NCBI RefSeq assembly: GCF_000204055.1
Contig: NW_006768791.1
Location: 485,094-549,093 of the forward strand
Direction of reading: 5' to 3'
Source of the DNA: Melampsora larici-populina 98AG31
Lineage: Eukaryota; Basidiomycota; Pucciniomycetes; Pucciniales; Melampsoraceae
DNA length: 64,000 bases
Every line of letters starts with the position of its first letter. Position 1 is the first letter of the stretch. Positions 4,485-48,400 of this stretch are shown here, piece by piece. A model generated the notes under the pieces. It was not told the origin of the DNA. It saw nothing but the letters and a program-made list of their open reading frames with translations, and searched no databases. Position numbers and translations under genes: made by a program.

Positions 4485-4658
4485 CTTTTTAATTCTATAA
4501 CATCATATCAATTTTCCAATTATTCCTTTCAACCCAACGAATCAGATTCCTTTTTTTCATTTTTTTCAATCTTTCTCGCCAAAAAACCAGAATTGATCGA
4601 CAAGAAGTAAGACGACAACCGTGAGAACTCTCACGAATCAATTGACAACCAACGCTTC

Positions 4659-9500: not shown

Positions 9501-9848
9501 CGACAAGCAGCTTGGGCGCAGTACCGTGACAAATTATGGACCAGTAGGATCACCCAAGCAGTACACTATAACAATCGACACGCTAACGGTGAAGTACTGG
9601 AGGTGGGTGACTGGGTACTAATCGATAGCAAGGATCGACAGCAAGTAGTTGGTGGGAACGGTAGACCAACATCGAAACTACGACCCCGCTATGACGGTCC
9701 CTACAAAGTCAAGGAAGCCCTGAATGGCGGCCGCAATTTCCGACTGAAGCTTAACGACAATGATAAATCCCACGACGTCTTTCACATATCGAAGCTGAAG
9801 AGGTACCATTGGAGGGAGGAGGAGTGCGATACAGAGGTATCAAAGTAA
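6540..9848 (+). pseudogene. pol: Gypsy Pol: protease, reverse transcriptase, RNase H, integrase
   Basis: The frame continues from gag after one TAA (first ATG 6615). In order: a protease-like motif (ALIDSAAEANL), RT with YIDDVV, RNase H (LFTDASGHGLG), zinc-binding HHCC and DDE integrase (LDFIGP, GDRDKAW, ADGRSEKSNK), and a C-terminal GPY-type segment. The RT box that normally holds the first catalytic Asp reads FSIINQINSF, with Asn (AAT, 7569-7571) where Asp is expected, so RT is probably inactive. Whether the TAA is a readthrough signal or a mutation cannot be told here. Confidence 0.9.
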
Positions 9849-19500: not shown

Positions 19501-20363
19501 TACCATCAGTCCTGAGGAATGGAAAGCGATCGAAGCCTTGAATGATGTGCTGGGGGTAAGTGCATTTGACCCAGATGTTTTGGATATTCCCTACTAAGTT
19601 TTCTTTTCTTCCATCCATGGATACAAAGTTTTTTTTGCGATCAACAAAAAAGATGGAAGGTGATGGGCCCACCAGTGCCTCAGTTCTCTTCCAGTACTCT
19701 GGATTGATATCGGTCCTTGTCGATACCAAAAACGCTACACCACATCAAGGCTTATCCAACATGATTGGTGGTATGATCAAACAGCTACGCGAATACCAGA
19801 CGGAGGCACTTTATTGTGATCCGCTTGTAATGGCGGCCATTCTCAATCCCAGACTTCGACTAGAATTCTTCAAAAACAAGTATCCCGATTATTCCGGACA
19901 CGCCGAAGAACTTTTTCGCCAACACTTCTCTGAGTATTGGAAAAATAATGTCAATTTGGCATCAAAATCCACTGCCGAGGCCGAACCTCAAGCCAATCAA
20001 CCAATTGATCCATTTGACGAAACAAACATGTTCAGCTCCTCAGTTAAACAAGTTCTGACCAGCGACGAAGAAGTTGATCACTACTTCTCGGGAATGCATC
20101 CATGCGAAGGTAATACTGACATATTAGTATGGTGGAGAGTAAGTTTACTCTCCTTATCTTTTCTTTAGCATGACCTTTGACTGACTTCCTTGTCCTCGCA
20201 GCGCAATCAAAATCGGTTTCCAAAGATGGCTAAGATGGCTCGGGACTTTTTGGCTTGTGTGGGGTCTTCTTGTGCAGTCGAAAGAACCTTTTCGACTGCA
20301 GCAATCGTGTGTGCAAATCGACGAGGTGGCCTATCATCAAGATCCATTGAAAGAGCCGTTGGC

Positions 20364-20371
20364 ATTTGTCA
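20364..20371. repeat. KDZ 8-bp target-site duplication, left copy
   Basis: ATTTGTCA precedes the KDZ terminus CACCTGTGGCTACCC and recurs at 38477-38484. Eight bases is also the duplication length reported for Zisupton-class elements. Confidence 0.9.
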
Positions 20372-20692
20372 CACCTGTGGCTACCCGCCCCTTCGGATAC
20401 TAGCCGATAGGAAACGGGTCGTTCCTATCGGCGACAAGCCGAAGACCCCCCTTCCGACACGCCGACGCGGCCGCCGCGTCGGATTCACAACTACAAAAAC
20501 ACAAGTTCACACATGAATTTTAACATCGCCAACAGTATCACCACGTAAACATAGTATCAACATACTACTATACACTTGCATACAAAATTACCCAACGATC
20601 CAAGATGTTACATAAGAAGCTGTCACACAAGTGTGATCTCCAGTCACACGTGGTGTGAAACTCGGTCACACATGTGTGATTTTGGGTTGAAC
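20372..20692 (+). repeat. KDZ left terminal inverted repeat, about 320 bp
   Basis: It matches the inverse of about 38152-38476 with only scattered substitutions and small indels. It includes a near-perfect CCGACGCGGC/GCCGCGTCGG palindrome near 20458-20480 and the first CACATGTG palindromes at its inner edge. Confidence 0.88.
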
Positions 20693-21125
20693 TTGTGAAA
20701 TTACGGAATTGTACAACCCCTTTTCACACATGTGTGATTTTTGCCTACACATGTGTGATAGATGGTCACACATGTGTGACTCTTGGTTACCAGTTTTACG
20801 GCTGCATATGTACAACCCCTGTCACACATGTGTGATTTATGATTGAGCTAGACTGTAGATCACATTCATATACGTATGATCCCAGTTAAAACTTGTGTCA
20901 AAATGAGAGTCACACATGTGTGATTTCAACTGACATGTGTTACTATCATAAAAAGTCAAAATACATGACCACACATACGTGTGACATATTCACACGTGTG
21001 TTGCTCTTGAAATCACAAATTTGTGAACGGCACTCACACAAATCAGGATAGAAATCACACATGTGTGAATAGAAATCCCACATGTGTGAATAGAAATCAC
21101 ACATGTGGGAAAACCAACTACCACG
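20620..21125. repeat. Left subterminal array of TCACACATGTGTGA palindromes
   Basis: At least eight full or near-full copies of the 14-bp palindrome TCACACATGTGTGA, plus degenerate forms (CACACGTGTG, CACATACGTGTG), occur at irregular spacing. The right end has the same core. Such arrays are plausible transposase-binding sites or regulator sites. Confidence 0.8.
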
Positions 21126-21252
21126 GTTCAACTAAATACACTTCTTGTGATTCAAACCATTGAACATGGGATCCCATTCTCACGTTTGTAACAAACTTCT
21201 GTGCATTGACCTCATGGCATGTCCCAAGACTTTTAAATTACAAAATTCTTAG

Positions 21253-24200
21253 CTAGCTATTCATCATATTATCATCATCCACAATACCCTCCCATTCATC
21301 TTCATCTTCATCATCATGGATGAAGAGCTGATCCACCATCTCACCTAGCTCCCCCCCAAAATCATTTTCACCTTCCCCGTGAAGCATATTTTGCTCAAAA
21401 TCTTCCAGCTCATCAAGATCAGTGGCTTCTATATGTTTGGCATCGATAATATCTTCCAATATTGACTGACCTCTACGCACCAAACTTTTCCAGCGCTGAA
21501 TCAATGTATTAATCTCTTGCTCTGTCGCCATTGTGTGGTGATGAGTTCTTCTCAATAACTCTACAATATTTCCGTCCCAAGTCATCCATGTCCCATAATG
21601 CATCTGACAAAGATTGCTGTGAAGCGCTTTCAAAACCCCCAAATTCACCTCCCAAACATCCTTTGAGACGCGCTGACCGGGCTGAACTAATTCAATTAGC
21701 TCCTTTCCACCTCCTTCAGGATCATAATCTTCTGAACCAAGATCATTATCAGAAACTTCACACGCACATAACATTATTAAGCAGGACTTACCACCACTAC
21801 ACAAAGCTAGTAAATCATCAAATTTTAATTCCATATTCAGTGCTTGGTGTACCATCTGCTGAGCCTCCCTTCCCAACCTTCTAAGCTCTTCCCGACAACT
21901 CCGCTGTTGCAAAAAAGCCTGTATGCCTTCAATGGTTTGCGCATCCACAGCCCATTTCTCCGTGGGATGTGTAAGCGCACCTACATTCCAGAAATTATCC
22001 TCGAAAGGGAGTCTCTTGGCTTCATCAAGGGAAGGACAACCCATGCGGCTGATAGGGCGGATTCGGTTGTATAGTGAGACTTGATATTCATATGAAGTCC
22101 ATTTGCGTTTGAACATCAACTGTTTCTTCGTCATCAGAGTTTTCATACCCTGTTGTGCTTTGGTTCCTGCATTGTTCCAAATGTAAGTTAATTCAAAAAT
22201 TAATTCCACATCCTTTTAAAAATTAAACAAATGAACCAAAAACAAAATCGAAATCAAACACCTACCTTCAGCGTACTTGTCCCACTTCTTTTGAGCCTCC
22301 ACGATACCCACTTTGGCTTCATAAAGCTTCATCTTTGCCAGGCGCACACGTATGAGTGCCTCAGCTTTTTTACCTTTAAGAAAAAAAGGAGGCACAAATT
22401 GGTCAGCCAAAGTCCAATCCTGATCAGTCAGGATATGGTACTAACCAGTTGACGCACGAAGCCGGCGGAACTCCGGACTTCCTAACTCTTCTGTCACATC
22501 TGCAATAGATTTCTCAAGTTCAACAATGGACACTGGTAAGGTGAGTGAAGATTCAACTTCATCATCTGTCCAATTTCTTCGTCGTTTCCTTCGCAGTCGA
22601 CGAAGTTCATCACTATATTATAATTGATATCAGACCACTATCTTTGAAGGCTTGCACATTCAACAAACGAACTGAGCATCTTTAACTTCTGCCTCAAGGT
22701 CCAGTAGTTCCACAAGGCGATCCTCTAGTTCCTGCTGAGCGTCACCATCCGCCATTGCAGCAAGTTGCAACTGTCTCTGCCGGTCCCACTGGTCCGAGAA
22801 ATACACCCATGTATATGAGTCATCTTGAGTCTCTAGCTTCTCAAGAGTGTCAGATGCAACATCCAACCGCTTTTCAGCTGTCTTTAGCTTCACCTCAATT
22901 GACCGCGCTAAATATGAATTGAAAATGATATTCAACTTAGAAGGAAGTATTATAGATGGAGATCATATAGACATACCAGCATTTCTGCATCGCATATCAT
23001 TGCAGTGACTGGACTTTAAATCAATCATATCTACTCGATGTTGTTTTGTTGAGCATCGACATGGCGCTATAAGTGGATCCAGTTCCGACCAATCCCGCTC
23101 TAAACCTTCGCCATCTGACAAACCCCAACCCTTGTTCAACCTGGGATTATATTTCAGTTGACAAGTCCACTCGTGAGCATAAGCATGAAAGGCACTAGTG
23201 GCAAATCTGATATCTCCCCGCGCATACTCTTCTTCAAAATACTTATGCTGTTAAAGGAGGCAAAGTACTTCAGAGTGCATTGAAATAATAACAGAGAACA
23301 AAAATACCTATTCTCACATTCTTAACACTTTTTTCCAAGGTACAACCAATGTCATACAAGATTTGAAAGCTTTTGGGCGGTTTTCCAGGTTCAGAGGTAT
23401 CTTTCATCAATTGATCAAGCAATGCCAGTACATAATACTGACTGTTATTCAATGATATCAATCAGTCCAACCACACGCATGTGGAAGGTTCACAGTTTCA
23501 AAAACTTACCGCTCTCCACTTTGGATTACATTCACAAATTTCAACACATGATCATGTTGACATGCAAGTCCAATCAGCCCTGTTTCGTCGCATCCCTTCC
23601 AGGTTGACCGTCCTCGAACATCTGCTGCGGCTGTGTGCGAGACTGAACAACGATCCTAATGAACACAGTCATCAGAACTCAACCTGACGTATTCAATTAG
23701 GATTCACACGATTGTGATACAGATTCACACAATTGTGATAAAGATTCACACATTTGTGATATGGAATCACACAATTGTGATTGACCTTCACAAGATTGCG
23801 ACTAAGAATCACACAATTGTAATACATAATCACACAATTGTAACTGTGAATCACACAATTGTGATACGTGATCACACAATTGTGATATGTGATCACACAA
23901 TTGTGATTAGGAATCACAAACGTGTGGTAAGTAATCACAATTGTGTGATTCCCAGTCACAATTGTGTGATCACATATCACAATTGTGTGAAGGTCAATCA
24001 CAATTGTGTGATTCCTTGTGATACGCAATCACATGATTGTGATTAGGAATCACAAAAGTGTGTTAAGCAATCACACAATTGTGTGATCACGTATCCCAAT
24101 TGTGTGATCACGTATCACAATTGTGTGATACCGTATCACAATTGTGTGATACCGTATCACAGTTGTGTGATCACGTATCACAATTGTGTGAAAAGAAGGG

Positions 24201-25505
24201 GAGCTACATACCTGCGGTTCTTTAACTCGACCTTGGTTGCTGACATGTTTCTCCCACTCGTCAATTTCCTTAGGATCCAGGAAAAGCGGTGGAGTTTCCA
24301 TTTGATCCTCCTCACACTCCCGACTTGCTGCAAGATGTCTCCGGTGTTGGAAGTTGCCATCCGTGCATACGTGATAATCACATTCATCTGGTATATCATT
24401 CTGCTGAAGAGGACCAAAACATCTTGGGCAGTTCATGGCCAGTACATCCAATGCGGAGAGATACAAAGCACAGATAGTAAGTTCTTTCTCCTTTCGCAGC
24501 ATATATCAAAAAGCATCAATTGCTGAAGAAAGTGTCTTTCTCCATCGTCTAGGCTGGAGAGCTCAATGAAATATATGTTAGTTTCCAAACATTTCATCCA
24601 GAGTCGTGGAACTTATAAAGCTCTCACTCCACTCACTTGTTTGGATTTTTTGACCAATAGCATTGGACAAGCCGGATCAAGGAAGGAATCCAATGCCAGT
24701 GCAAATCCTTGTGTTCGTACAGTGCAAAATTTCCACAGTCCATGATGAAGCCGGAGTAGCCTGATGGAATATGCAGTCTGCGGATGCACAGGTGAACCAC
24801 CTATGTACCCCATTCTCATCAAACGAACCTGATCTGAAGTACAATCACAGAATTGTATTTCTTCCTGCTTACGAGCTTTAATAAGGTTGCACCGCCACAC
24901 ATGTCAACAAAATTGATAAAATGAATAAGAGACCAAGCTGGCCACGCACTAACTATGTCTAGCATATCAACCTTGCGAGTACGTAGTTTGCCATCTCCAC
25001 AGCAGCAGCCATGGTTAAAATCCTTATCCCAGGTTGCTGTATGACCCCATTGTAAAGTTTTTTTACATAGTGTCATATATGTCATAAAAATATCCGGTAA
25101 ATTGTTGGCCCAATTTTTCTTTTCGGCCAATCTTTTGCTTTTGTAATAAGAGCCCCGGACATAGTTAGAGAATGTGACGTTTTGTTCTGGTGGTACCACC
25201 ACTTCGGGATCATCGTGCGGCTGTTGTGGCATAAGATTGAAATTGATGTTATCCTCCTCCATTTCCATGACATCTGGTTCATGGTGGGCAGGCGCATTCA
25301 CATCATCATCGATATTTCCATTGAGGCCATTTGCTGCGTGCTCCAGTGCTAGTTCTAGCTGTTCTATCCGATCTTTCACATATCGAGCCTCGCTATCTTG
25401 AACTGCTTCAACAATTATTCCAGAGCCTTCAGCTGCTATAATTGTGCGTTTCTTCTTTTGTTTTCCACCAAAAGGACAAGGAACTGAGGTACCCTTCTTG
25501 CCCAT
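21253..25505 (-). pseudogene. KDZ transposase with CxC1 cysteine cluster, one internal stop
   Basis: Ten exons: 25505-24954, 24864-24637, 24553-24212, 23655-23510, 23441-23318, 23247-22977, 22907-22673, 22612-22446, 22373-22266, 22166-21253, all GT-AG, about 1028 residues. A CxC1-type cluster (GCCCGDG, then FCDCTSDQVRLMRMGYIGG) precedes the KDZ core: NCPRCFGP, DGNFQHRRH (about residues 325-333), DRCSVSHTAAADVRG, CDETGLIGLACQHD, LYDIGC, and HEWTCQLKYNPRLNKGWGLSDGEGLE. The C-terminal part is charged and coiled. An in-frame TGA (24506-24508, codon 276, AIDAF*YML) would stop translation before the catalytic domain; CGA to TGA is the simplest origin. Intron 3 (23656-24211) consists largely of palindromes. 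The mobilising protein may therefore be dead in this copy. Confidence 0.88.
23695..24195. repeat. Internal array of TCACACAATTGTGA palindromes inside a transposase intron
   Basis: More than twenty CACAATTGTG-core units (TCACACAATTGTGA and TCACAATTGTGTGA), a few with variant cores, repeat about every 18-22 bp across 500 bp. They fill most of the 556-nt third intron of the KDZ transposase, whose other introns are about 60-100 nt. The array opens His/Ile/Val-rich frames on both strands, which are artefacts. Confidence 0.9.
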
Positions 25506-26245
25506 CTGTCGTAGATAATATCGATATGGAAATGTGAGGAGCTTGAGATTTGTAGATATGAAGAACTTAGGGAATATACTGAAGAATTGGTTCGTTTGAG
25601 GAGATTTTTTAACGAGTCATCGGGATTTGAGGATGTCTTTTTTCTTCAACGTGCACAGACTCATTTCAATCAGACTAAAGCTGACAGATACTTTCACTGG
25701 CCCCTGTCTACCAAGAATGGCAACTGTCCACTACTCCATTTTCAATTGGGACGGCTGGTTTGAAAATTGGGACGGCGGTTTTCATAGTCTCAGGTTATGT
25801 ATTCCTCCCCAATTGATCTGGTATTAATTGGGAACATCCAATTGATACCAGATGAAGTTGATACATGTTGATAACATTTCAGGTAGGTGAACTGAGGTGA
25901 CCTGCTCTGCAAAACGAGGAGATGAATCATATCGATAATCCCATCCTATGCAGTCCTTGCACGCAATAATCAAGGTCATATGTGAGAAGTTGCACCTTAA
26001 TTATCTCTTGAGAGACTGTACAGAATCACGTGCAAGATTTTATCGGTCCTGTACACACTTCTTTGGAATTGGCCTACACCACAAGGTATTTGTAACATCT
26101 CACCCCTGTCTGTGCGCAACCACACTCGAGGCTCAATCACACACTAATCCTCCCTCCCCTTCCATCTGTCTTTTCTTTACCTTTGATTGCCACTCGTTAC
26201 CTATATGATGCAGAACAATTGATCTTCTAGTTCCAACAGAAACCC
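25506..26245. promoter_or_regulatory. Divergent intergenic region of the KDZ element
   Basis: This 740-bp gap separates the outward-facing starts of the KDZ transposase and the acidic protein gene, so it probably contains both promoters. No clear TATA box or palindrome array is seen. Confidence 0.4.
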
Positions 26246-28284
26246 ATGCGCTCCAAACGCAAAGTCCACAATGGGTCCCGATCGATCGGTTCAAAGTCCA
26301 GATCATCAAGGGTGCTCTCCAATCGCAAACGTACTCCCCAAACCCGACACCGAGACAACTTGACCGCAGCAGAAATGGCTCTTGACGATGAGGACGTAGA
26401 AGATGACGTTGATGAGGATGGTAAGCAGCCGGCGTTATCTTCCTTATAATGATGCGTATTATTTGAATAAAAAGAAACAAACTGATAAGATGAAATCTCC
26501 AACCCGATTTACGCCGGTTGCACTTGACAGATCGCCACCCGGACGAGAACAACGAAACAGAATCGATCATGGATCGACTTGCAAGGCAAATCTCACCGGA
26601 GGAAGAAGATCCTGGCTCACCCCCTCCCCCTACTGGGACCAACAACCGCCGTGCTCTCCGCTCATCAAATGCTCAAACAGAGGAGGAAGCCGCCAAAACG
26701 GTCCTACCTACCATTCACAACTATAAACAACTAGTTGACGACTGGCCTCCTGCCCGTATAGCTGTGCAAGAACGATTGCAAAAGAGGAAGGGCACTGCCG
26801 TTCCCCCTAAAATTCTAACCGAAGCTCGCGCCCTTCAAAAGCTCTACAAGCAACATAAGTCGCTGCTGGCAATCATGGGTAATGTCAGTATATTTACAAT
26901 GAACAAAGCTTTGTAAGTCCAATATCTCTTATGATATCTTGCTTTTGCCACTTAACTGATCTCTTTCTCCAACAGAGGTGAACTTGGAGGTCGACAAAGA
27001 CCTAGCGGTTATCAAATTTGGTTGAAGTTTGGCAAAGAGATCGAAAATTATAGAAAGAAAAGTGAGTTATCTTCCTCTTAAATTTTTAGAATTCCCTGGA
27101 TAATCCCATGAATGATTCTTTAATAGTGCCACGCAAATGGGGGCAGAAAGGTATCTTAGCTTCTCGAAATAAGATACTTGGCCATATATGGACTGGTCTT
27201 CCGGCAAGCCATCGAGAGGTGTTTTCACCTCCCGTTTTTCATGTGCTATCCGGCCTCTCTTATTCTCAACATGGAAAGAGACTTCAGCTCGATGAAGAAC
27301 AGCAAGAAGAAGAGATTGTCTTGGAGCCTGGCGAACGTGAAGCGCTCCAGCGATTATATGATCAGATAGTATGGAAGGAAAAAGTGGCTAAAGAGTATTC
27401 GAAAGCCAGTAAAGGTATACCAGCGGGGCCCACTCTGCCAGACTACAATCGTCAGTCTCTTAAGTGTATTGAGCGTCTTCACAATCAGGTTTGACTTCCA
27501 TTCTCTCAAAAATAAGGTAGTAGTTGTTTTTATTGACTACTACGGGTCAACTTTGCCCTTGACAGATTGAGGACGAGTCAAAAAACATGGGGTTTGACTA
27601 CTATCTTCTAGCATGTAGCAACCATAGTTCAACTGAGGTGGACTCATCTTCCCAAGGATGGTGTGAACAGTATACAAGTTTAGACGATATGGGAAAATAC
27701 GTGAACAAGAAGAGCAGTTTTGCTACCTTGTTTGCAGCCAGGGCTCAAGGACTTTCTGCCGGTGAGGTCGTAGCTGATACCATCGGAGGCAATGGTACGA
27801 TGACAGAAAAGGCTAGAAAAACGGATCCTGGGGATAAAGTGAAGGCAGATCTAGCTCTGGAGTTGCGAACACGTATGAGTAAGTTTGGTTCATATAACTC
27901 ATGATTGATTGGATGCTGATCTGCTTACTCTTATAATCAGAGGCGTTACTTGGATATGAAGTCGGTTTTCCACGAGGCCCAGACCCAGAAGCCATATTGC
28001 TAGACAAGGGTTACGATATTAAAATTATTCAATTACCAGGTTCTAAACTACCATATCAAACTTTGAAACTTGGATTCAATGCCATGAACAGTCGAAGATC
28101 TTTGTGGCTTGATGATATCAAAGCAAATCTATTCAACTTGGAAAAGATAGCATCTCCTGATGTTCAAAATGATGATATTGTTCAAATGGATATAGATGAA
28201 GAGGTCACTAACACCCAAGGCGTAACTCTTGATGATGAAGTGGATGATGATGAAGAATGGGGTGGATTAGGGGATGAGGAATGA
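26246..28284 (+). CDS. KDZ-associated acidic protein, 541 residues, family not recognised
   Basis: Six exons (26246-26420, 26531-26878, 26978-27061, 27127-27488, 27566-27878, 27941-28284) join in phase with GT-AG introns and no stops. The N-terminus is basic (MRSKRKVHNGSRSIGSKS), followed by an acidic patch, a Lys/Leu-rich helical region, and a stretch (RPSGYQIWLKFGKEIENYRKK ... IWTGLPASHREVF) that loosely recalls an HMG box. The C-terminus is highly acidic (DDEVDDDEEWGGLGDEE). It starts 740 bp from the transposase and is transcribed away from it, so shared regulation and a role in transposition are possible but inferred. No catalytic motif is apparent. Confidence 0.75.
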
Positions 28285-28747
28285 ATTCGGATCAAAACTG
28301 TGGAATATATATATTTTGAAGCACAGTGGTTCCTTTCACCTTATTCTACACTTGATTCTAGACTTAAATAACTTAAATATGGTTTTAGACATCTTGATTC
28401 AATGTTTATTTCAAACACTTCACTTATATGTCAAAATCTTTGCTTTCCTTCCTTATCTTTCTAAACTATATCTCTTTAGAAGATGTTTACGGTTTTTTTT
28501 TTGTTTTTATATTGAAGAGCTGCAAATATTCTGTTCCACAACAAAAATGTCAATCACACATGTGCAATGATGAATCACACACCTGTTCCGGAGCAAGTTG
28601 GTTTTTTTTTGTTTTTATATTGAAGAGCTACCAAAATTCTGTTCCACAACAAAATTGTCAATCACGCATGTGTGATTAACATTCACACAGTTGGGTGATT
28701 AATAACACACCTGTTCCGGAACAGGTTGTCTTTGGTAAAATGTGTAT
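28285..28747. other. 3' flank with scattered palindromes
   Basis: AT-rich, no gene. A duplicated motif (GTTTTTATATTGAAGAGC with nearby CACATGTG-like words) occurs at about 28503 and 28612. Confidence 0.5.
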
Positions 28748-29478
28748 GATCATATAATGACCTAGTTACACGCATACCTGATTTCAAAGGTATGATGACA
28801 CCACAACTTTTGCAGTTTCCGCACCACACTAAAAGTAATTGTATATTTGGAATCAGGCATGTTCACTTACTCTATGACCTACCTTTCACATCATCCGGAA
28901 CAAGTTGTGTATGATCATATTTTGACCTAGTTACACGCATACCTGATTACAAAGGTATGATAACACCACAACTTTTTCAGTTTCCGCACCACACTAAAAG
29001 TAAGTGTATATTTGGAATCAGGCATGTTCACTTACTCTATGACCTACCTTTCACATCATCCGGAACAAGTTGTGTTTGGTAAATTGTGTATGATCATATT
29101 TTGACCTAGTTACACGCATACCTGAATTCAAAGGTATGATAACACCACAACTTTTGCAGTTTCCGCACCACAATAAAAGTAAGTGCATATTTGGAATCAG
29201 GCATGTTCACTTACTCTATGACGTACCTTTCACATGTTCCTGAACAAGTTGTCTTGGGTAAATTGTGTATGATCATATTTTGACCTAGTTACACACATAC
29301 CTGAATTCAAAGGTATGATAACACCACAACTTTTGCAGTTTCCGCACCACACTAAAAGTAAGTGTATATTTGGAATCAGCCATGATCATTTGATCTATGA
29401 CCTACCTTTCACATCATCCGGAACACGTTGTGTTTGGTAAATTGTGTATGATCATATTTTGACCTAGTTACACACATA
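28748..29478. repeat. Tandem repeat, about 179-bp unit, 4 copies
   Basis: Units begin with GATCATATTTTGACCTAGTT at about 28748, 28913, 29092, 29271 and a truncated fifth at 29450. Periods are 165, 179, 179 and 179. Each includes TTTCCGCACCACACTAAAAG and CATCCGGAACAAGTTGTG. Confidence 0.88.
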
Positions 29479-30686
29479 AATTTCAATGGCAGCAAATTGT
29501 GTCATTCATATCTTTTCCTTTCACAATTTCTGCCCAAACTGTGAAAGCAATTTCAAAGCAATTCTACATTTATGGAAAGCGGGTATAACTAGGTATGAAG
29601 AATATGTGGATAAATATGTGTCCTTCAAAATTGAGATTTCATTCCATCTTCCCTAACTGATAAAAAGGTATTTCCAAAGAAACAAGTCAGTATTTCTGGA
29701 CTGAACACATCAATAATTAATTTTCACCTTTTGAATTTTCACCTTTTGATTGATGAATTATGTTCATACATAAATCTTCATTCACATAGATCCTGCAAGT
29801 TTACGGGTCTTTGGTTAATTTTCATCATTAGAAATGGTGAATTATTTACATATACCATCATGCACATTCCTCTATTGGATTCTAAAAGAGACATATATGG
29901 ATCATTTAAATGCTCCATATATGTCTCTTTGTGATCATTTAGAATCAAAATCATGATTTGTGGCAAATTCAAATTCATATACATAAGGAACATTTAAATG
30001 ATCTCAATGTCTCTTTGAGATCATATATAATTAACATAGATAATCATATCTCTTGCATTCATACCATACGGGTATGAATCAAACATGTAATCAGAAGGAT
30101 ATCATGCTGTTATCCTTCATTTTTGACAACTCTTTCAAATCTAACAACTCTCAGCTATATTGCAGGTGTTTACCAATGTAGTTCACTTTTCCTGACTAAT
30201 AAATATATTTCTCATTACGCTGAACCTTAGGGTTTTAATATGTGTAATAACTCCAAAGATAATTGATAGAGATAGAAGATGAGTTATCTATCGTTCAAAA
30301 TCGAAACTTAAAACAAAGTCAAATTTATAAAATCAAGACTTAAATCAAAGTCAAATTTATTTCGAATATTAAATCAAAGTAAGCACCAATTCAATATTTG
30401 ACATCTACTGATCCTTAGGGTTTTACTATGTGTAATAAAACCAAAGAGATTTGACAGAGATAGAAGAACAGTTAGATATTGTTTTAATTCAAAACTTAAT
30501 ACAAAGTCAAATTTATTTCGAATATTAAAAGAAAGTAAGCACCGATTCAAAATTTGAGATCTATTATTGGAATTTGAATATTGAAGCAAAGTAAGCCATC
30601 CGAAGAATCGATGGAACAATTGGCATCGAAAACTACTCACATAGACTCTGTGGTTGAACACAGATGGACTTCTCATGATGTAAGAT
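29479..30686. other. AT-rich KDZ interior without a clear gene
   Basis: A diverged direct repeat of about 188 bp (starting CTTAGGGTTTT near 30226 and 30414) is visible. Open frames are short and unconvincing. Confidence 0.5.
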
Positions 30687-31099
30687 CTAGAGTTTGCATC
30701 GTACAAAGTCAGAATCTTCTTCTGATCCACGTCTAATGTGTTCCATTTTCGTAGCCTCATGCAATTGATTCTTATTTGAGATCATCCAACGAGTGTTAAG
30801 AAGTTGGTAACGACGCTGCATATCCGGTGATGAAGGAGATCCAGTCAGTAAAAGACTGGTGACCAAAGACTTATATATGACTTTACCTGGTCGATAATAC
30901 TTTGAATTCCCGACCAGAACCTCAAGATTCCCTCCCCCTCCTCACAATGATTTGGACCGCTCTTTTGAGTGTGATAATTCATAAAGAGTTGTTTTATGAA
31001 AGGATCTTTGATGTGGTCAAAAGCGTTGTGAATAGGTTTGATGATAGGATGAGCAAGATCGTAACGCAGGGATAAACTTCGGCTTGGGCAGTCGGTCAT
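30687..31099 (-). CDS. Possible small KDZ gene, 113 residues, unknown
   Basis: Exon 1 (31099-30887, 71 codons, MTDCPSRSLSLRYDLAHP) and exon 2 (30815-30687) join in phase through a GT-AG intron of 71 nt and end at TAG. The product is hydrophilic with a likely helical C-terminus. No family is recognised, there is no supporting homology, and the region is repeat-rich, so it may be a chance open frame or a remnant. Confidence 0.3.
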
Positions 31100-32328
31100 G
31101 ATTGATGGCGAATCTGTGTTTCGGATGGGGTTTTAAAATGATGGGATGGTTTGTGTTGTATGTATTTATTTTGAATCATAAAATATGTATTGGATCATAA
31201 ATTAACCCCTAACCCTCATAGGTAATAAGAGATGAGGGCTGGGCAAACCTAACCCTAAAGATTCCGTACCACATCACGAGCCATGTATCTCTTTGTATCA
31301 CTCATCTATCCCTCCAGCTCACCCCGATTCACCAACTGACTTATTTGGATTCGATAATCATAAAGGAGTTTGTTGTATTCTTGGTAAGTCAAGGTTCAAA
31401 TTTACTCGGTTTGACTTCATGTTTTGCTCATATCTTTGTTTTCTCGTTTTAGGCCGATTACCCTTTCCATTGATCCACAGGATAATCCGGACTTGGTAAC
31501 TTGGCTGGAGGCAATATAAACTTGGCTCGAGGAGATATAAACTATCACATCATCTCCCAGTCTGTTGCTGAGTGCTCCTAATTGTTGGACTCCGTGCTAC
31601 GAACCGGGAGTCATTCGGCCTACTGCGGAGATTGGTGTGCTAGTCTAGTTCAAGAAGAAATCCTTAGATTTGTGTAAGCTCAGACTAATCCTCATTTTGA
31701 TTCAAATTGTAGATTATCTTCTAATATCTCAATCTTCTGCCCTCTACTACTAGTGTATCATCGACACTTTTGGACATCTATCGAAAGAAATCGACTTGGT
31801 ATTAATCAAAATCAACAGAGGATACAAGATTTATATTTAGTTAACTCGAGTTCGCATTCGTTAACTTATCTTATGCTTTATGCTGATTCAAATCTGACTA
31901 TAAATCTGTTTTTACACTTATTTCAATGGGTTTGATAGGAAATCGATCCATCATTATTCAAATCAATTTGATAAAATTGAAGTACACTTGCTGATTTAAA
32001 CCGATCAATCATTTATGATATTTAATTCATACAATTGAAGGTAACTTGCCATATATATTCATATGTAGCTTTGAAGAAGGGATTACAATCTTCAGACTTG
32101 TTGATTGCATTTGGAGCTGAGAATGCTTTTATTACTAAACTTAATCTAGGTATCATCTGTTCCCATTTCTATCCATCCTCTAGATAATATAAAGGATCGA
32201 ATATAACATCTGTTTTGCAAGTATGTAATTTTTCCCTTATAGAACATGTCAGTTATCACAATTCTTGACCATGACTGATATTTCTTCTACCAATTTCCAT
32301 TTTGTTTGATTAAAAGCAAATAGATAAG
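31100..32328. other. Region upstream of the TET/JBP gene
   Basis: No supported coding region. It presumably holds the promoter of the dioxygenase gene. Short open frames do not show domain signals. Confidence 0.45.
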
Positions 32329-33844
32329 ATGAGCCGTGCGCGAAGTAATGAAAGGAAGAGGAAAGCTGGGGTGAAGGTTCCCACGAACAAGTCCAGAACA
32401 TCGCCGGCCTACTATAAATCTAGGGATAAATACAAGAGGGAGAAGAAGTTAAGCAAATTATACAGTCGTCATCACGCAAAACGAAAGGAATTAAAAGCAA
32501 AACTCACTTCGGAGCTTGGCTTACCCTTAGACACCAAGTTTATTTTTCGTTACAGTTTGAAAGATAGACCTGATCTGGCTGATCGTGAACGAATTAGTAT
32601 TAGTTCCGGAACTGTAGTTGTGATCAATAAAATTGATCTATCGATAGTTTTAGTAGTTAAATGTATACCATATGAAGAGATGGATCCTGCACTTAGAGCC
32701 CGTTATGATCATTCTATATCAACCACATTCCTACATGCACGTGCTCGAAATCAATGCAAAATACATAGTTCTATTCAGCCGGATGGAAACAAAGATGATG
32801 AGATGAAACCTCTTGAAGGATGGATGGGCTGTGGGGGATGGCGAGGAGGATGCGAAAAAGATAAATCTTTAGGTGAGCTCTCACTACTTTATAGTAATGA
32901 GTGTATTCAATAAACTAATACTAAGTATCTTACCAATATTCATTTTCATAATGCTCTTCTGGATGTTTTTTGTATAGGGGTGTACTCGATGAACTCATTT
33001 ACTTCATCTGATATAGGTAGAATTCAAACTGATAAAGAGAGAATGACGGAATTTCATCGTATCAGGGATTTCTGGGCAGGAAGATTTTCTTTATTATCAC
33101 TCTTTGTTTTCAAGACGAATCTAGCTCTGGCATTTCAAGCCAAGATTCCCGGATTCGATCAACTTAAATGGCAACTAACTCCAAATGGTTTAGTATTTGC
33201 ATCCAATCTGGTTGTTACATGTGACGGGTTTTGTAATCATCCACATACTGACAAAGATCATAGTAGATATGCTTTTGGTATGTGGGCATTGATAATTAGA
33301 AAGACTGGTTTACCGTATGATAAAGTCAAGGGGGTTAAAATAGGTAATAAGGACGGAGTGAAGCTGGGTGAAGTAAGAGGTACAAGATTTAGATATGATG
33401 ACTTTGATGTGGAGGTTGCTGTATCCGAGTGTAACGGTGTATATGATATCTTATGGGATACAACGGTGAGTGGTGCATAAGATATCATATGGAACATTGC
33501 TGACTTTGCCAATATTTGGTTTCATTTGGTCTGATTTTCACGTGCAGTGTGAACATTACACAACTTCTTCAGTAGCTTATAATGGTAATGGTGATATAAT
33601 TCCTCATAAGAAGGGTGTAGTGACCATGTACGGATCTTCTTGTCAAATTTCACAAGATTTGGTTAATAGAATCAAGCTACTTGGGGAGAAGAAGAAAGAT
33701 ATGACAGATGCACAGTGGGAGAAGTATTGTGCTGGTAGGGTGAAAGACTACGAGCAAGAGTCTATCAACAAAACAGAGAAGGCTTTGGAGCAGGATGATT
33801 TGAAGAAGTTGAAGAAAGTTGAAAAGCAAGTCAAAAAGAAATAA
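32329..33844 (+). CDS. TET/JBP-type 2OG-Fe(II) dioxygenase, 442 residues
   Basis: Three exons (32329-32872, 32978-33465, 33548-33844) join in phase with no stop. The N-terminal 75 residues are very basic. The iron-binding HxD is CNHPHTDKD (His271, Asp273), followed by SRYAFGMWALI, and the distal histidine is in CEHYTTSS (His347), created by correct removal of intron 2. This layout matches fungal TET/JBP enzymes, which oxidise 5-methylcytosine (or thymine in JBP) using 2-oxoglutarate and oxygen. The C-terminus is a Lys-rich coiled segment. Basidiomycete TET/JBP genes are known to ride with KDZ transposons. Substrate is inferred; I could not assign the 2OG-binding arginine with confidence. Confidence 0.82.
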
Positions 33845-35371
33845 TACATATTAAAAGATCAAAGGAGAGTTTCAAAATTAGATTCCCGAGTTGTATGAAA
33901 TCCAGATATACTAGCTTACCTATATAGTGAAATGTGTGGGTTATTCTGCCCCTGATAGATAAACTAGAAAGGAATTGATATCATCTTGAATGAGTTTGAC
34001 AAATGCGTGATTAATAATCACCAAATTCTTTGTGATTATTGATGTTGTGATTGAAAAAAGATGTGAGATCAGTGTCACACAATTGTGTGATTGAGCGTCA
34101 CAATTGTGTGACACTGAATCACACAATTGTGACACTGAATCACACAATTGTGACACTCATTTACACAAATGGGACCCTGAATCACACTAATTTGTGACCA
34201 AATTGTAAAACAACTTATTTGATGATGGAAACTCCTGTTCCAAAAAGATAATAAGAAAACAAAGTATGTATTTCTTTTTCATATTAAGCCAAGTTTAAAT
34301 ATTTTCTCATGGGATTGAGATTAGAGTAAAAACACGCAAAAGTAAGTGTCACAATTGTGTGATCACAATTCACACTTGTGTGACACCAATTCACACGATT
34401 GTGAATTGTGAAACTCAATCTCACCATTGGGACCCTGAATCACACTAATTTGTGACCAGATTGATGGAAACTCGTGTTCCAAAAAGATAATAAGAAAACA
34501 AAGTATGTATTTCTTTTTCATATTAAGCCAAGTTTAAATATTTTCTCATGGGATTGAGATTAGAGTAAAAACACGCAAAATTCAGTGTCACAATTGTGTG
34601 AAGGTGATTCACACTTGTGTGACTCCAATTCACACAATTGTGAATTGTGACACTCAATCACACAATTGGGACCCTGAATCACACTCATTTGTGACCAGAT
34701 TGTAAACCAACTTATTTGATGATGGAAACTTGTGTTCCAAAAAGATAATAAGAAAACAATGTATGCATTTATTTTTCATATTAAGCCAAGTTAAAATAAT
34801 TTCTCATGAGATTGAGATTAGAGTAAACACACGCAAATGTGTCTGTGATTCTTGTGGTTGAGAAAGACCCATATGAAGAACACACTGTGATTGTTGGTCA
34901 CAAATTTGTTAATCTTTAACAATCACAAATGTGTGATTGAGATTCACACAAGTGTAATTGAGGATCACAAATGTGTGAATGAAGGTCACACAGTTGTGAA
35001 TCCCTGTCACACATTTGTGAATCGTAATCACACATATGTGAATCTCAATCACACATTTGTGACATTCAATTACGCTATTGTGAATAATGTGAAAAACTTT
35101 GTAATTCATCTTTATAAACAAGGAAGTTGGAATATTGATTGAGATTCACAAATGTGTGAATGAGGATCACACAGTTGTGAATCTCTGTCACACATTTGTG
35201 AATCCCTGTCACACATTTGTGACTCTCAATAACACATTTGTGACATTCAATTACGCTATTGTGAATAGTGTGAAAAACTTTGTAATTCATCTTTATCATC
35301 AAGGAAGTTGGAATATTTTCAAGCTAAGATGTAAGTATTAGTTTAGTAAGTACACAAGAAGAAGACATTTG
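33845..35371. repeat. Repeat-rich interval with palindromes and tandem blocks
   Basis: CACAATTGTG-core palindromes cluster at 34070-34170, 34350-34420 and 34585-34650. A block (GATGGAAACT...TTAAGCCAAG) repeats at about 34225, 34463 and 34721. From 34920 to 35260 the core changes to TCACAAATGTGTGA and a 181-bp unit repeats (35061, 35242). No gene is supported. Confidence 0.8.
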
Positions 35372-37607
35372 TTACAAAATCTGATCATGCTGCTCGCAAT
35401 TTTCTGATTTCCTTCCGTTGCATTCTTTTCTCCACTGTTTGAAAACCTGGATGTTTTCTTCATATGATGGATCCCAGCCGGAGGCTTCTGAACTTCGTAG
35501 ATGCAGCCAGTCAGGATTAAGAAAAGGTACGGGTAGACTTTTAGAAAATTCAAGCTGGAGGGATATACAGTGGCATCCATCAATAATACCCAGGATAATT
35601 GGCTCCACATTTTCCCCAGGTGCTGACAAAAGAGGGGGAGTTGTTGAACACGCAGTTGCCACATTGGAATAAAAAATTACCGGTCTATTATAAGTGTTTG
35701 CGATTACACTACAACCGCCCGGCAGTGGATACCAATGTGATCGAGGTACAATGTCGTCCGCTGGATACTCCACTATAGAGAGCATTTTGTTGAGACTGAT
35801 CCTGCTTGTACTTAATTTCCATAGATTACTCCTATACCAGGATTGGTTTTGGTTGATGTGTGTAGCCATCTCTGCACGAACAGCGACAGCATCCTCCACA
35901 GTTCGTCCAAGGGAGACCGCTACGGCTGCAAAAGTACAGAGCCCCTTCGCAGGTACATTTGTGGCATTCCGAATGAAGGGGTAAAGGTAACTGGGAAGTG
36001 TTGCTACAAAATGCCATTGCTGATATATTCGTCAGTAAGAAGTGATGCAACTATGAAAGATAAATAGTCCTCACTTGCAAAGCTATCTCTTCGAGGTTTT
36101 TCGGGAGGCAGTTGTTGTTGGGATCCTTGGTTCCTAAAGGTGGAGTAATCGAAATCCGGGTCTGGTTAATACATTTTATATGTTTGAATAAGCTAAAATG
36201 ATATGCATAGCTAATAGCTATTTGAGAGCTTACCTTGTTGTTGTTCTTCTTGGATCTCTTGGTGTTCGGTTCCTTCTAATTAGTAACCAAGTGTAAGCAA
36301 GTCAAGTTGAATTAGTAAGCGATCTTCATATTTAAGTTACACCAGATACTGACAGATGATGTTGGATTGATTTCGTTCTAAGCAGGAAGTAAGTGAGTAA
36401 TGGATTAGTGGAACGAGCAAAGATGTACATTTGAAGTAAGTAGGCTACTCGACTCACCTGTTCAGTTCCTTGTGAAGTCTTTCGTGAAGATTGACGTATC
36501 GGTCTGATTGAATCCTTGTTACTCTCACTACGAGTTGCTCGCTGATGAGGAGTATTCTCCTTGTTGGATTTTGAAATAGGAGTTTTTGACGAACTTTGAT
36601 GGGTTATTTTGTTTACCTGATTTGAAGTACGTAATCTAGCAGCTATCTCCTCATTCTCTTTGTTATTCTCAACACTTTTAGTCTCTTGTTCGGTTTGATC
36701 AAGGTCTGGGAGGTCGTTCTTATGCTGAGCTGCTTCATCTGTGTCTTCATTTTCTTCTTCATTAGAAGTCGCCTGTTTGGGGTGGGATGTTTTGATCGGC
36801 TCGGTCTGGCGGATTGGTGAAGTCGTAGGTGATGGGTTAAGTACCTGTGGTTCCGAAAAAATTGTTAGTATTCTTGATTGATTAATGAAATCGATATCAA
36901 ATAATGAAATAACTTACTTCATTACTTGTCATTCCTTTCTGGTCGAGTGCCTTAACTAGCTTACACTGACGAAAGAATCGGTCAAGGAGAAGGTCCTGGT
37001 CCGATTCGTCGAGGGGCTTCATCTCGTCGAACAAGGCTTGAAATCGGGTTGGAAACTGAGTTGGTGTGGGATCTGAAGAGCCTGCAGGTTGTGTCGCTGG
37101 TGTGGGATTGGAGGTGCTTTGAATAGGGGTTGCTGAATCTGCAACAACTCGTTTGCGTTTTTTTTGCTTAGGTACAAAGGTATCGTTCGTTAGGTCAGGT
37201 AAAGTCATCGGTTTGAAGTTCACAACAGGGCCATGATTGTGGTTAGGATTCTCGATGACGATGAACCAAGTCCAATCGTCTGGATTTCGCTTGGAGGTGA
37301 CTTGAAATGGACAGGTGGGAATGGTTAGGTTGGGGTTTTCGGCCTTTGCTTGCAGGTGCTTCCGATTGGGTCCAAGTCCACATTTCCATTGGGTAAATGA
37401 TGGTCGGCCGTCGTTTATGGTAACTGGGTAGCGATGTGCGTTGCCGTGAGATTTGATAAAGTGCTCGGTAGCTTTTACCGTAAGATAAGAGGGTGCGGGC
37501 TGAGGGAGGGGAGGTATAACGGTGGTATTGTTGGAGGTCTCGGTGGTATTGTTGGAGGTCTCGGTGGTATTGTTTGGATTGGGTTCGTTTGTGTTAGAGG
37601 TTGACAT
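35372..37607 (-). CDS. FAR1/GCM1-like zinc domain joined to an OTU-type cysteine protease, 617 residues
   Basis: Five exons (37607-36918, 36844-36458, 36275-36234, 36161-36075, 36019-35372) join in phase without stops. Residues about 40-130 carry a FAR1/GCM1-like zinc domain (FIKSHGNAHRYPV, WKCGLG, TCPFQVT, NPNHNHGPV). The middle is a charged, disordered linker. The last exon has an OTU-like fold: PAKGLCTFAAVAVSLGR supplies the likely catalytic Cys, and ILGIIDGCHCISLQ the His. The usual Asp before the Cys box is absent. A DNA-binding domain with deubiquitinase-like activity could protect or stabilise element or chromatin proteins; that is inference. It reads inward from near the right end of the KDZ element. 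Confidence 0.75.
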
Positions 37608-37689
37608 ATTCGTTCGACAATGGGGTATCTTGTTATGATTCGGGAAAGTCTGTCTTTGAGGGGAAGAATGTGTTTTTAAAATCTATGTG

Positions 37690-38215
37690 TGATGAGGCCA
37701 ATTTGTGGGTGAATCACAATAGTTGTGATTTGTGGCTACACGTGTGTTCACACTTGTGTAAGGGAGAATCACACATGTGTAATTGATGGTGTGGTGTGAT
37801 TGCATTGCACACTTGTGTGAAAGTCACTCACACTTATGTTGTGACAGATTCGACTTGTGTCAATTGGAATCTGTTGGCGTAACCTGTGTGATTCATGATC
37901 ACACATGTGTGATCTCATGTAACCTGTAATATAAGTGTGATTCGATTGCACACATGTGCGTTTTGACTGAAATACGTCCATGTGTGATATCTGCTATGTA
38001 TGTAACATGGTTGCTTGTTGCTTATGTATATGTAGCACAGTTGAATGTGTAGGGTCACACATGTGTGACAAAGAACATGTGCAACAAACCGTAAATTTAC
38101 AAGTGTGATCTCCAGTCACACATGTGTGACCATCTATCACACATGTGTGACCCGAAATCACCCATGTGTGACCGAGATTCACACCACGTGTGACTGGAGA
38201 TCACACTTGTGTGAC
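37690..38215. repeat. Right subterminal array of CACATGTG palindromes
   Basis: Copies of TCACACATGTGTGA and variants (ACACTTGTGTG, CACACATGTGCG) mirror the left-end array, partly within the right TIR. The core differs from the AATT core used inside the element. Confidence 0.8.
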
Positions 38216-38476
38216 AGCTTCTTATGTAACATCTTGGGATGTTGGGTAATTTTGTATGTAAGTGTTCTATGTCTTAATAGTAGTATGTTGATACTATGTT
38301 TACGTGGTGATACTGTTGGCGATGTTAAAATTCATGTGTGAACTTGTGTTTTTGTAGTTGTGAATCCGACGCGGCGGCCGCGTCGGCGCGTCGGAAGGGG
38401 GGTCTTCGGCCTGTCGCCGATAGGAATGACCCGTTTCCTTTCGGCTAGTATCCGAAGGGGCGGGTAGCCACAGGTG
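38152..38476 (-). repeat. KDZ right terminal inverted repeat
   Basis: It is the inverse of the left TIR and ends CCACAGGTG at 38476. It includes the same GC-rich palindrome (CCGACGCGGCGGCCGCGTCGG-like, near 38367). TSD ATTTGTCA follows at 38477. Confidence 0.88.
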
Positions 38477-38484
38477 ATTTGTCA
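38477..38484. repeat. KDZ target-site duplication, right copy
   Basis: ATTTGTCA, after which the hAT1 transposase frame resumes (TGGCTCAAA) and reaches TAG at 38591-38593. Confidence 0.9.
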
Positions 38485-45401: not shown

Positions 45402-45453
45402 TTGTAGCGAGAGATACATATCTCAAACTCAAAGCGATCCATGAAATCATCTC

Positions 45454-48400
45454 ATGAGCGATCACGGACTAGTATCAACATCAGCTGGTAACCCACCATC
45501 GTCAACTCACTCTCAATCCGAGGAAGAAGGCAACAATACATTACTCCAGATAACTGATTCTCTACTCCAATCTATTAGAAATCCATCCAACATTTCCCCG
45601 TCAAGTAATTTAAACAATCCACCTCCGTCTGATTCAAAGATGTCTGCTCCATTGAGTCAACCAGTTATGCAAGGAACAAATAAACAGCTTCAAGCCGTAT
45701 ACGTGAATCAAGCTCTAAGTAAAATTTGTCCCGAAAAACCCCTATCGGACGAAAATTATTTCATCTGGTCATCCGAAGTCAGAAACGGACTGGACTCATT
45801 GTACTACATTGAGTACATAGAAACTGATGATATTAAAGATGAACCTGGATCTATAATCCACGAAGTCGCTAGGAAATTTCTTACATCCTGGTTGCTTAAA
45901 CAGATGGATGCGACAAACAGATCTAGATTTGAACCGAAGATAACCACCTACACGACTAACGGTGCTAAAACTGAAAGCTTACCTGCTAGACTTTGGAAAT
46001 CGGTCGAAGACCATCACGGAAGCCGTACGAATGAAACTCGACTACTATTGGAAAGATCACTTAACTTAATTGTACAATCTCCATCCACCCCTTTATCTAA
46101 ACATCTAGAATTTTTTCAATTGGCTGCCACAAAGTTTAAGAATGCTGGCGGGAAGATAACGAATGACGATTTAGGTCAAAAGCTTTTGATTTCCTTGAAT
46201 AATGCTCACTTTGATGACGCTAAGGCCATAGCCGATCAAGACATCACGGACTATGACAAAGTGGTGAATGCCTTGAAGAAACGAATGGCAACTGTTGCGA
46301 TGCTGCGGGGTAATAGGCCAGATCGACTTATACAACATCCACCCGTTCAGATCATGCCGGAGGCTAGTGCGGTGTCTAGAAATCGTTTTGCAAACAAATG
46401 CACTAAGAAGAAATGTTTAGGCATTAATCACTCACCGGATCTATGTTTCAAAAAGCCAGGTAATGAACATATGCAACGTGAATGGATAGCTGAAAGGATC
46501 AAACTCGGTCAATGGAAAGGAGAGGTTCCTTCTAACCTTCCCGATGCATCTGCCTCAACCGCTGTTCTGGACGAACCATCCATTGAAGATCTTGAAGCTT
46601 CGTTCGCTAGAATGTCACCTTCAGCCAGCCATGTATCAACGGTGCATCTTCGAGACGAGGTTGCGAAAAATGCGGCCGAGAACTCGATTATTGCTCTGAT
46701 CGACACTGCAGCATCTCATCACATGTTTAACGATAGACACTCATTCTCATTATACGAAGATATATCCAATCGTCACGAATTGCTGAACTTGGCTGGTGGC
46801 ACAGTAACTTTGCCAATTGTAGGAAAAGGATCTGTTTCATTCAAAGGTCCTAACGGTGATATCTTCAAATTGCATGACTGTTTGCACGTGCCGGAATTAA
46901 AGCACAGTTTGATCTGCGGAACGATTTTGATTAAAGAGGACTTTATCACGGTTTGAGAAGGCGATTCTTTCAAGATCTCTCAAGCTGGGAAAGTTGCATT
47001 CGTCGGACACTTCATGAAGAACATCAATTTATTACAAGTCAAAGTTAGCATATTGACTCGATCTCAACCACCTCAAGCCTCTTTCACTGATGCTATTTCA
47101 CTCCACCGTCGTTTAGGCCACCCTAATGTTAGATATATGAAAATGATGCTATCAGAGGAGAGTGTGATTGGTATCGGTGACTTGAAATCAACAGTTGTTC
47201 CTGATTCTATTGACTGCAATCCATGTAACCTTGCGAAAGGTCACCGAATTTCTCATTCTTACTCACGAGAGAGAAGTAAATCTTTACTTGAAAATATTCA
47301 TATCGATCTGAGCGGTATCATCAGGACACCGGCCTTATGTGGAAGTATATATTTCATACTTTTCACGGATGATTACTCAAGTTTTAGGGATGTGTCAGGC
47401 CTTTCAAATAAATCATCTGAGGCTGTGTTTGAGAAGATCCGTCAATACGTGGCACTAGTTGAACGCCAATGTGAAGCAAAGGTCAAGAATTTCACCATCG
47501 ACAATGGTAGTGAATTTATCAATGATTTACTGGTGCCATGGTGCGAAGAACGAGGCATCTATATGCGGACCACTGCAGCTCATACCCCTGAGGAGAACGG
47601 GGTAGCTGAGCGTGGTAATCGTTCTGTGAAGGAGAAATCACGCGCATTGATGATTCAGGCTAATATGCCCATTAGATTCTGGCTTTATGCAGTCAAGGCT
47701 TCAGTCTACCTTCTCAACCGTACTGTCTCTTCATCCCTACCAAAAGGGAAAACCCCTTATCAATTGAAGTATGGGTCAAAACCGGATATGTCTCATGTTA
47801 AGACATTTGGATGTTTAGCTTATGTTCTCATACGCAAAGCCCTTTGTACTGGGGGTTTTGGTCACGTTTCACGACAAGCTATACTCCTTGGCCATACTAA
47901 TCATAATCATAACTATGAAGTTTTCATCATAGAATCAAACACCATCGTTCTCTCTCATGATGTTACCTTCAAAGAACATATTTTTCCTTTTCAGAAACTC
48001 AAGCCTTTCAATGTCAGCCATCTATCAGTTGACGATGAGGACGAACTTTTATTAACGGATCCTTCCACTTTGGCTCCAGACAATCACCGCGAGCAAAGTG
48101 ACAACGAATTACTCCCTGGTGGTGAAGGAATGCACCAGGAAACAGAACCTTTGGTAGAACAGCAAATCGAAGGCAATACTGAAGACCATCTTAATAATCA
48201 ACTTGAGGACCTTGTAATTGATCAGGACTCAGGACCACGAAGATCGGAACGTCTTAGGCAACCTGTGACTCGATATACTCCATCGGCAAACTTTGCATTT
48301 TGGAACGACTCATCCTCTTTCACCGATGAATTCGATCTATTCCACTATGCTTTCTCAGTTGGTCCTATTGTTCGCCTAATTCACGAACCAGCAACATACA

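Follow-up and report, generated by a model that had tools for sequence, protein, structure and literature searches.

An 18-kb KDZ transposon of Melampsora larici-populina with a Tet-like dioxygenase, a predicted AFT-OTU protein, and phased palindrome arrays

DNA transposons that carry a TET gene are already known from rust fungi. The main text of Kojima 2025 (PMC12730594) describes TET+ Dileera (KDZ) families in P. graminis, P. triticina, and M. larici-populina, and it makes a case for escape from silencing. Here, we analyze a KDZ element of ~18 kb (positions 20372-38476) in a window of 64,000 nucleotides from the 98.3-Mb assembly of Melampsora larici-populina 98AG31 (C27:485094-549093; C-numbers denote contigs, and WIN denotes the window element), which carries a Tet-like dioxygenase gene together with a gene that is predicted to join an AFT/FAR1-like DNA-binding domain to an OTU-like protease (AFT-OTU). 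A DNA-binding OTU partner together with arrays of sites would be a testable answer to the question of how TET-carrying DNA transposons direct a general 5-methylcytosine (5mC) oxidase to themselves.

The window element resembles TET+ Dileera in its KDZ transposase, its TET/JBP gene, and its 8-bp target-site duplication (TSD; stated in PMC12730594 for Zisupton-1_PGr), and from the rust association reported there we infer that the window KDZ belongs to the Dileera branch. It differs in AFT-OTU, in a weakly HMG-box-like (HMG-like) protein, and in arrays of palindromes, which are not described for Dileera in the main text of PMC12730594; that text has no OTU, FAR1, HMG, protease, ubiquitin, cargo, or Dileera palindrome arrays, and its supplement may list the window family. 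The top-ranked results of our literature searches held no report of OTU with KDZ or TET. The original prediction was right that KDZ transposons travel with TET/JBP genes, and this is already published; the new features are AFT-OTU as a partner that often accompanies TET, the phased arrays, and the HMG-like protein of the core. A TET gene that travels with a second enzyme gene is also described, in the main text of PMC12730594, for the IS3EU elements of rusts, but there the companion is an alpha-kinase instead of AFT-OTU, the transposase is another one, and the TSD has 6 bp.

The closest likeness in logic is the anti-silencing protein VANC of the Arabidopsis VANDAL transposons. According to the accessible text of PMC5735166, the VANC motifs are arrayed in tandem within noncoding parts of the elements, introns among them, and vary from one related element to the next. 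Both cases combine a transposon-encoded factor with arrays of short motifs in noncoding DNA, introns included, and in both the motif type varies among related transposons; in the window element, motif arrays were indeed found in the noncoding parts. The word palindrome is absent from the accessible text of PMC5735166, and the window element has TET and AFT-OTU and a 21-bp phasing. No homology is claimed, and binding and loss of methylation would be expected for the window element only by analogy.

The element and its genes

The element is a large KDZ DNA transposon and belongs to a family with shared ends in the genome of M. larici-populina. The terminal inverted repeats (TIRs), put at about 320 bp in the original prediction, were found to span ~330 bp (200 bp at 98% identity plus 126 bp at 91%, with one 11-bp indel), and the 8-bp TSD ATTTGTCA flanks the element on both sides. 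When the joined flanks were compared to the genome, 16 of 18 matches spanned the junction without an insert (13 nearly full length, 3 partial), the best of these insert-free relatives with 94% identity over 186/186 nt; the other two were the window's own flanks. Judged by eye, the element has inserted into a hAT-like transposase gene of a repeated family (window 20181-20371 and 38477 onward). The element can be called complete with respect to its ends, but not with respect to its genes, because transposase exon 24553-24212 has an in-frame TGA. The same stop is present in copies C15 and C4, and the frame is open there in C11, C77, and C24. The KDZ and CxC1 motifs of the transposase were confirmed by Pfam: the fragment that follows the stop matched the KDZ domain (PF18758) with an expectation value (E) of 1.1e-57, and the CxC1 cysteine cluster was found at E 5.6e-32. 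Five genes had been counted originally; four are clear, and a conserved small minus-strand peptide (~31132-30690) is perhaps the fifth.

The predicted dioxygenase matched the Tet-like family PF20515 with E 1.5e-35 and 123.6 bits (cut-off, 27), in agreement with its earlier assignment to TET/JBP. Its frame is open, and the iron-ligand motif HxD is present as HTD, in frame in the spliced protein, with the distal His assigned by eye; the claim of an intact HxD...H dioxygenase holds. The protein is a Tet-like enzyme by its profile and would be expected to oxidize 5mC.

The AFT-OTU gene has no stop in its five-exon model, and in this respect the intact FAR1-OTU gene of the original prediction stood. 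The zinc domain in its first exon (C..C..HNH pattern), however, is nearer to Pfam AFT, and Pfam FAR1 had no match in three copies. The AFT match itself is at the margin: the C45b copy reached 22.1 bits (cut-off, 21.6), the C24 copy had E 0.063, and the window copy had no match; in the PDB, Aft2 ranked second among 4 hits, at only E 0.25. The WRKY-GCM1 superfamily includes both AFT and FAR1, and a DNA-binding domain of this type is linked to transposons in the MULE/FAR1-FHY3 transposase-derived factors; the domain described here differs in matching Pfam AFT rather than FAR1 and in having an OTU-like domain as its partner in place of a MULE transposase. In the last exon, Cys28 is invariant and His150 is kept in ≥90% among 30 relatives, and the profile found OTUD5 as first and second PDB hit (E 0.0031 and 0.025) ahead of an antibody light chain (E 0.075); a longer profile gave OTUD5 at E 0.015 and 0.1. 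Since Pfam OTU matched only 1 of the 30 members, with E 0.24, we use the name OTU-like rather than OTU, and the OTU call is modestly supported. Searches with the AFT-OTU protein gave no hit at E 0.001, and therefore no relatives outside the genome could be aligned. A single-sequence fold of the OTU exon (mean predicted local distance difference test [pLDDT] of 35) was not used. In sum, the gene probably encodes an AFT-type DNA-binding domain and a divergent OTU-like protease, from which DNA binding and protease activity may be expected.

Head-to-head with the transposase gene lies the gene of an acidic protein. A search found 43 proteins at E ≤0.001, its own record included, all from M. larici-populina or M. 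americana. When the central 71 positions were used as a profile, 26 PDB entries were hit, 25 of them HMG-box proteins (E 0.045 to 1.3), although these are largely a few proteins repeated (HMGB1, TFAM, and SSRP1 entries); the whole-length profile had no PDB hit at E 1, and Pfam HMG_box matched 1 of 13 members weakly (E 0.046). The predicted fold (mean pLDDT, 54), for which Foldseek ranked GTF2I and HMG-box domains on top (best E 0.075), gives a hint only. The protein thus appears weakly HMG-box-like and, with its acidic tail, weakly resembles an HMGB protein. HMGB proteins are the DNA-bending type of cofactor for some transposases.

Palindrome arrays, copies, and the OTU-TET pair

The arrays are a cis element that adds to what was observed originally. 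In the window element, 70 copies of TCACANNNNTGTGA (≤1 arm mismatch), mostly 21 bp apart, form four arrays, with one palindrome standing alone outside them. With exact arms (TCACA, 0 to 8 bases, TGTGA), 57 were counted in the element, compared to 3 in the rest of the window and an average of 0.5 over 20 rough shuffles. Over nine elements, to which C28 contributes no spacing and C23 a near-duplicate of the window's ends, 209 of 393 neighbor spacings of ≤130 bp were exactly 21 bp, and 282 deviated by no more than 1 bp from a multiple of 21, compared to 56 expected under a uniform distribution. A period of 21 bp corresponds to two helical turns, and therefore, dimers bound to the arrays would all be located on the same side of the helix. 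The 7-bp linker carries 0.0 to 0.6 bits, with 160 distinct units among 187 units of WIN, C24, C77, and C15, i.e., the phase is fixed and the linker is free. Tandem duplication as the sole cause of the arrays in the window subfamily was rejected, since these linkers are nearly random; those of C45b are not. The phased doublet occurred 301 times genome-wide (control, 1), TCACACATGTGTGA 85 times (control, 3), 65 of them in WIN, C4, C11, C15, C23, C24, and C77, and TCACATATATGTGA, the core of C45b, 184 times (control, 1). Within the window element, the core is CATG in the terminal arrays and mostly of the AATT type in the internal ones. An array of TCACATATATGTGA at C8:460365-460899 has no OTU or TET nearby among the matches listed.

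A 20-mer of the element end (≤2 mismatches) has 34 genomic sites. Of these, 28 are arranged as 14 inverted pairs 4.5 to 31 kb apart, the window element included. Reading by eye in eight other copies revealed a TSD with 8/8 bases in C15, C23, C24, C28, and C45b, 7/8 in C77, and none in C4 and C11. C24 and C45b have KDZ, HMG-like, TET, and AFT-OTU genes; C77 has KDZ, HMG-like, and AFT-OTU, and its TET was missed by the window query and found by PF20515. C28 has KDZ and HMG-like only, and C4 and C11, the copies without TSD, have KDZ only. Two copies are partly N: C15 (8.9 kb) shows KDZ and HMG-like, and C23 (12.0 kb) shows KDZ and the AFT exon. The expectation that copies with the same ends keep the cargo was not borne out: neither TET nor OTU was found in the sequences of C4, C11, and C28, or among the matches listed for C2:2.46, C6, and C45a, and the TET/OTU module is thus optional. 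The gene order KDZ, HMG-like, TET, OTU is kept along the copies; the orientation of TET and OTU varies, and the cargo is therefore modular.

When the window element was compared to other copies, no value obtained for the ratio of nonsynonymous to synonymous substitutions (dN/dS) exceeded 0.43; the comparisons with a dS above 1.2 had a dS of 1.8 to 2.8 or saturation. With a dS of ≤1.2, dN/dS was 0.17 to 0.18 for OTU (C24, C77), 0.36 for AFT (C24), 0.14 and 0.06 for TET exons (C24), 0.06 to 0.11 for the KDZ core, 0.21 to 0.43 for the KDZ C-terminus, and 0.17 to 0.18 for the HMG-like exon. dS was unequal among genes of one element pair (for C77, 0.11 in the KDZ C-terminus, 0.67 in OTU, and 2.28 in AFT), which is a sign of module exchange. 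The 30.7-kb relative at C77:316925-349621 has ~5.7 kb separating two neighboring KDZ exons and a diverged, stop-containing AFT exon, a structure that suggests nested insertion plus module exchange.

An exon-level search revealed 57 window-type OTU loci (merged) and at least 157 TET loci. A TET was located within 12 kb of 42 of the 57 OTU loci (random placement in 5000 trials: mean 2.3, maximum 10) and within 6 kb of 39 (mean 1.1, maximum 6); thus, most window-type OTU loci have TET as a partner. The 42 pairs are oriented tail-to-tail (21), in tandem (17), or divergently (4). OTU and TET distances are correlated (Mantel, 0.79; 0 of 2000 permutations as high) over 41 of the 42 pairs, a set without C44, which gave no TET alignment, and with a C77 row that is a spurious TET fragment. 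Over 19 nonredundant pairs with the C77 row dropped, the correlation was 0.73, and the highest of 5000 permutations reached 0.53. In the other direction, an OTU was detected within 16 kb of 65 of the 157 listed TET loci, and many TETs seem to travel without OTU.

With a divergent OTU query, 134 OTU loci were found, at least 85 of which lie no more than 16 kb from an exon of TET or KDZ. Among them is a second OTU group, ~2 kb from KDZ exons and often without TET within 16 kb among the matches listed. In these searches, 150 of 555 candidates of the KDZ family search and 139 of 717 of the KDZ protein search were scored, and for this reason, absence of KDZ near an OTU-TET pair is uninformative. 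Further divergent OTU-like copies of similar score lie away from listed KDZ and TET (C49:430706, C1:4002796, C29:148172, and C31:635250, among others) and perhaps belong to another transposon family.

Proposed self-targeting and its alternatives

In our model, which we rate a little short of probable, the element carries an anti-silencing cassette that is addressed by sequence and whose logic parallels that of plant VANC, although it is made of different parts. The KDZ transposase and the head-to-head, weakly HMG-box-like protein would form the core, and the Tet-like dioxygenase and AFT-OTU the cargo. The AFT domain would bind the phased arrays cooperatively on one helix face and thereby mark the element's own ends, the transposase intron, and the TET-OTU spacer; the OTU part would then strip ubiquitin from chromatin proteins or silencing factors at these places, and TET would oxidize 5mC, which would maintain both transcription and mobility of the element. 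The sequences show the anatomy of the element, the linkage of OTU to TET, selection on the cargo (dN/dS below 1), and arrays that for the most part follow the AFT exon. That the cargo protects the element, as proposed in the original prediction, is still something we infer.

Which protein reads the arrays is central to this model. In eight elements that have an AFT exon (WIN, C23, C24, C77, C45b, C2:2.02, C20, and C38), all 15 ends that were examined had palindromes, 8 to 49 within 1.5 kb; they were present at none of six ends of C28, C2:2.46, C6, and C45a, in which neither TET nor OTU was detected. The end-by-end count covered 30 loci, of which 21 entered this comparison; the others were the four ends of C4 and C11, which have arrays and lack cargo; C201, which has an AFT exon and 0 palindromes; the two ends of C15 (1 and 15 palindromes, with cargo hidden by N); and two single ends without identified cargo, C2:168044 (8 palindromes) and C4:560123 (0). 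At the level of elements, the association of array and AFT exon has a P of 0.002, or of 0.007 with C201 counted. Among the 18 OTU loci on C1 to C4, an array lies within 20 kb of 3/3 with and 1/15 without an AFT exon (P 0.005, post hoc and ignoring shared descent), considering the first 100 listed array places (to C4:1983292) and scoring an OTU locus 21.5 kb from an array as without.

Several observations weigh against this model. C4 and C11 keep arrays, and C2:168044 has its palindromes, with no cargo seen, and the C201 fragment has an AFT exon and no palindrome in the inner 1.5 kb. The AFT exon of C77 is much diverged, with a stop inside, yet the same CATG core is used there; covariation of AFT and palindrome core was dropped as an argument, since C45b fits and C77 does not. 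An AFT exon is detectable within 6 kb at only 16 of the 57 OTU loci, and the window copy's own transposase is interrupted. As to the arrays themselves, the arm information of 1.5 to 2.0 bits arises partly by construction, because the arms were used to pick the units; the C45b linker carries up to 1.3 bits (38 of 53 units distinct), and the window arrays contain longer repeat units of 42 to 239 bp, so tandem duplication contributed to them. Furthermore, common descent may account for the joint presence of arrays, cargo, and transposase, and for this reason, the array-AFT correlation is not independent evidence.

A serious rival, which we nevertheless consider unlikely, is that the palindromes are the transposase's own sites, used for transpososome assembly or autorepression, and that TET and AFT-OTU are separate, diffusely acting passengers. 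It would explain why both ends of C4 and C11, where the transposase alone was found, have arrays, and it is in line with the diverged transposase of the TATA-core subfamily C45b. On the other hand, C28, C2:2.46, and C45a share the CACCTGT.GCTACC ends and a KDZ exon, and C6 the same end and an HMG-like gene, and these are the elements whose six ends lack palindromes; two of the four window arrays are internal, and on C1 to C4, arrays accompany AFT-bearing OTU loci and mostly not AFT-less ones. Judged from these sequences, we favor the AFT domain as the array reader. It is also imaginable, but quite improbable, that the OTU protein shields the transposase, TET, and HMG-like protein from ubiquitin-dependent degradation, with the zinc domain as a localization module and the arrays as transcription control. 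The second OTU group next to KDZ exons, often with no listed TET, is what one would expect of a transposase partner, whereas the window-type OTU is linked to TET with correlated distances and its AFT exon tracks the arrays. Decay of the cargo genes as passengers without function for the element is very improbable and already disfavored: cargo-less copies and stops in several copies, the window transposase included, would fit it, but the TET and AFT-OTU frames are open in the window copy, dN/dS did not exceed 0.43 wherever a value was obtained, and 42 of 57 loci have kept the OTU-TET pair.

A broader version of the anti-silencing model is possible but more doubtful: rust KDZ elements would have evolved anti-silencing independently of plants, with AFT-OTU reading family-specific, two-turn-phased palindromes and bringing deubiquitination alongside 5mC oxidation by TET, with OTU-TET as a portable cassette, and with a cargo that may explain the enrichment of OTU in rusts. 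According to the accessible text of PMC5295586, OTU (PF02338) and alpha-kinase are among the domains enriched in wheat rusts. Alpha-kinase is a gene of the TET+ IS3EU transposons (main text of PMC12730594), and a transposon source is therefore plausible for both; the cassette may help to explain the OTU part (PMC5295586). It would also represent a fungal equivalent of VANC, from which sequence-specific epigenome tools might be derived.

Feature coordinates and neighboring sequences

Positions of the features in the window are compiled in Table 1.

Table 1. Features of the KDZ element and its insertion site (window coordinates)
Feature	Position	Strand	Basis or remark
Left TSD ATTTGTCA	20364..20371		Flank reading
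Left TIR	20372..20697	+	Sequence comparison of ends
Left subterminal array, 11 TCACANNNNTGTGA	20623..21110		≤1 arm mismatch
KDZ transposase gene, several exons, CxC1 plus KDZ catalytic domain	21253..25505	-	Pfam
Array in transposase intron, 24 palindromes	23704..24191		Mostly 21-bp spacing
In-frame TGA, transposase exon 24553-24212	24506..24508	-	Translation of exon
Acidic, weakly HMG-box-like protein, six exons, 553 amino acids	26246..28284	+	Head-to-head with transposase
Tandem repeat, about four copies of 179 bp	28741..29478		Similar DNA in C24, C15, C77
Small conserved peptide(s), possible fifth gene	30690..31132	-	41-56% identical in C15, C24, C77
Tet-like 2-oxoglutarate-Fe(II) dioxygenase, three exons, 442 amino acids	32329..33844	+	Pfam
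Array between TET and AFT-OTU genes, 25 palindromes	34075..35243
AFT/FAR1-like DNA-binding domain plus OTU-like protease (predicted), five exons, 617 amino acids	35372..37607	-	Profile evidence
Right subterminal array, 9 palindromes	37748..38214		Partly inside TIR
Right TIR	38140..38476	-	Sequence comparison of ends
Right TSD ATTTGTCA	38477..38484		Flank reading

Near the element, the window contains two long retrotransposon-like open frames at 4611-9848 and 45445-49968 (by eye, Gypsy-like and Copia-like). Open frames at 58833-60644 resemble, again by eye, an Hsp90-family protein and probably represent a host gene.

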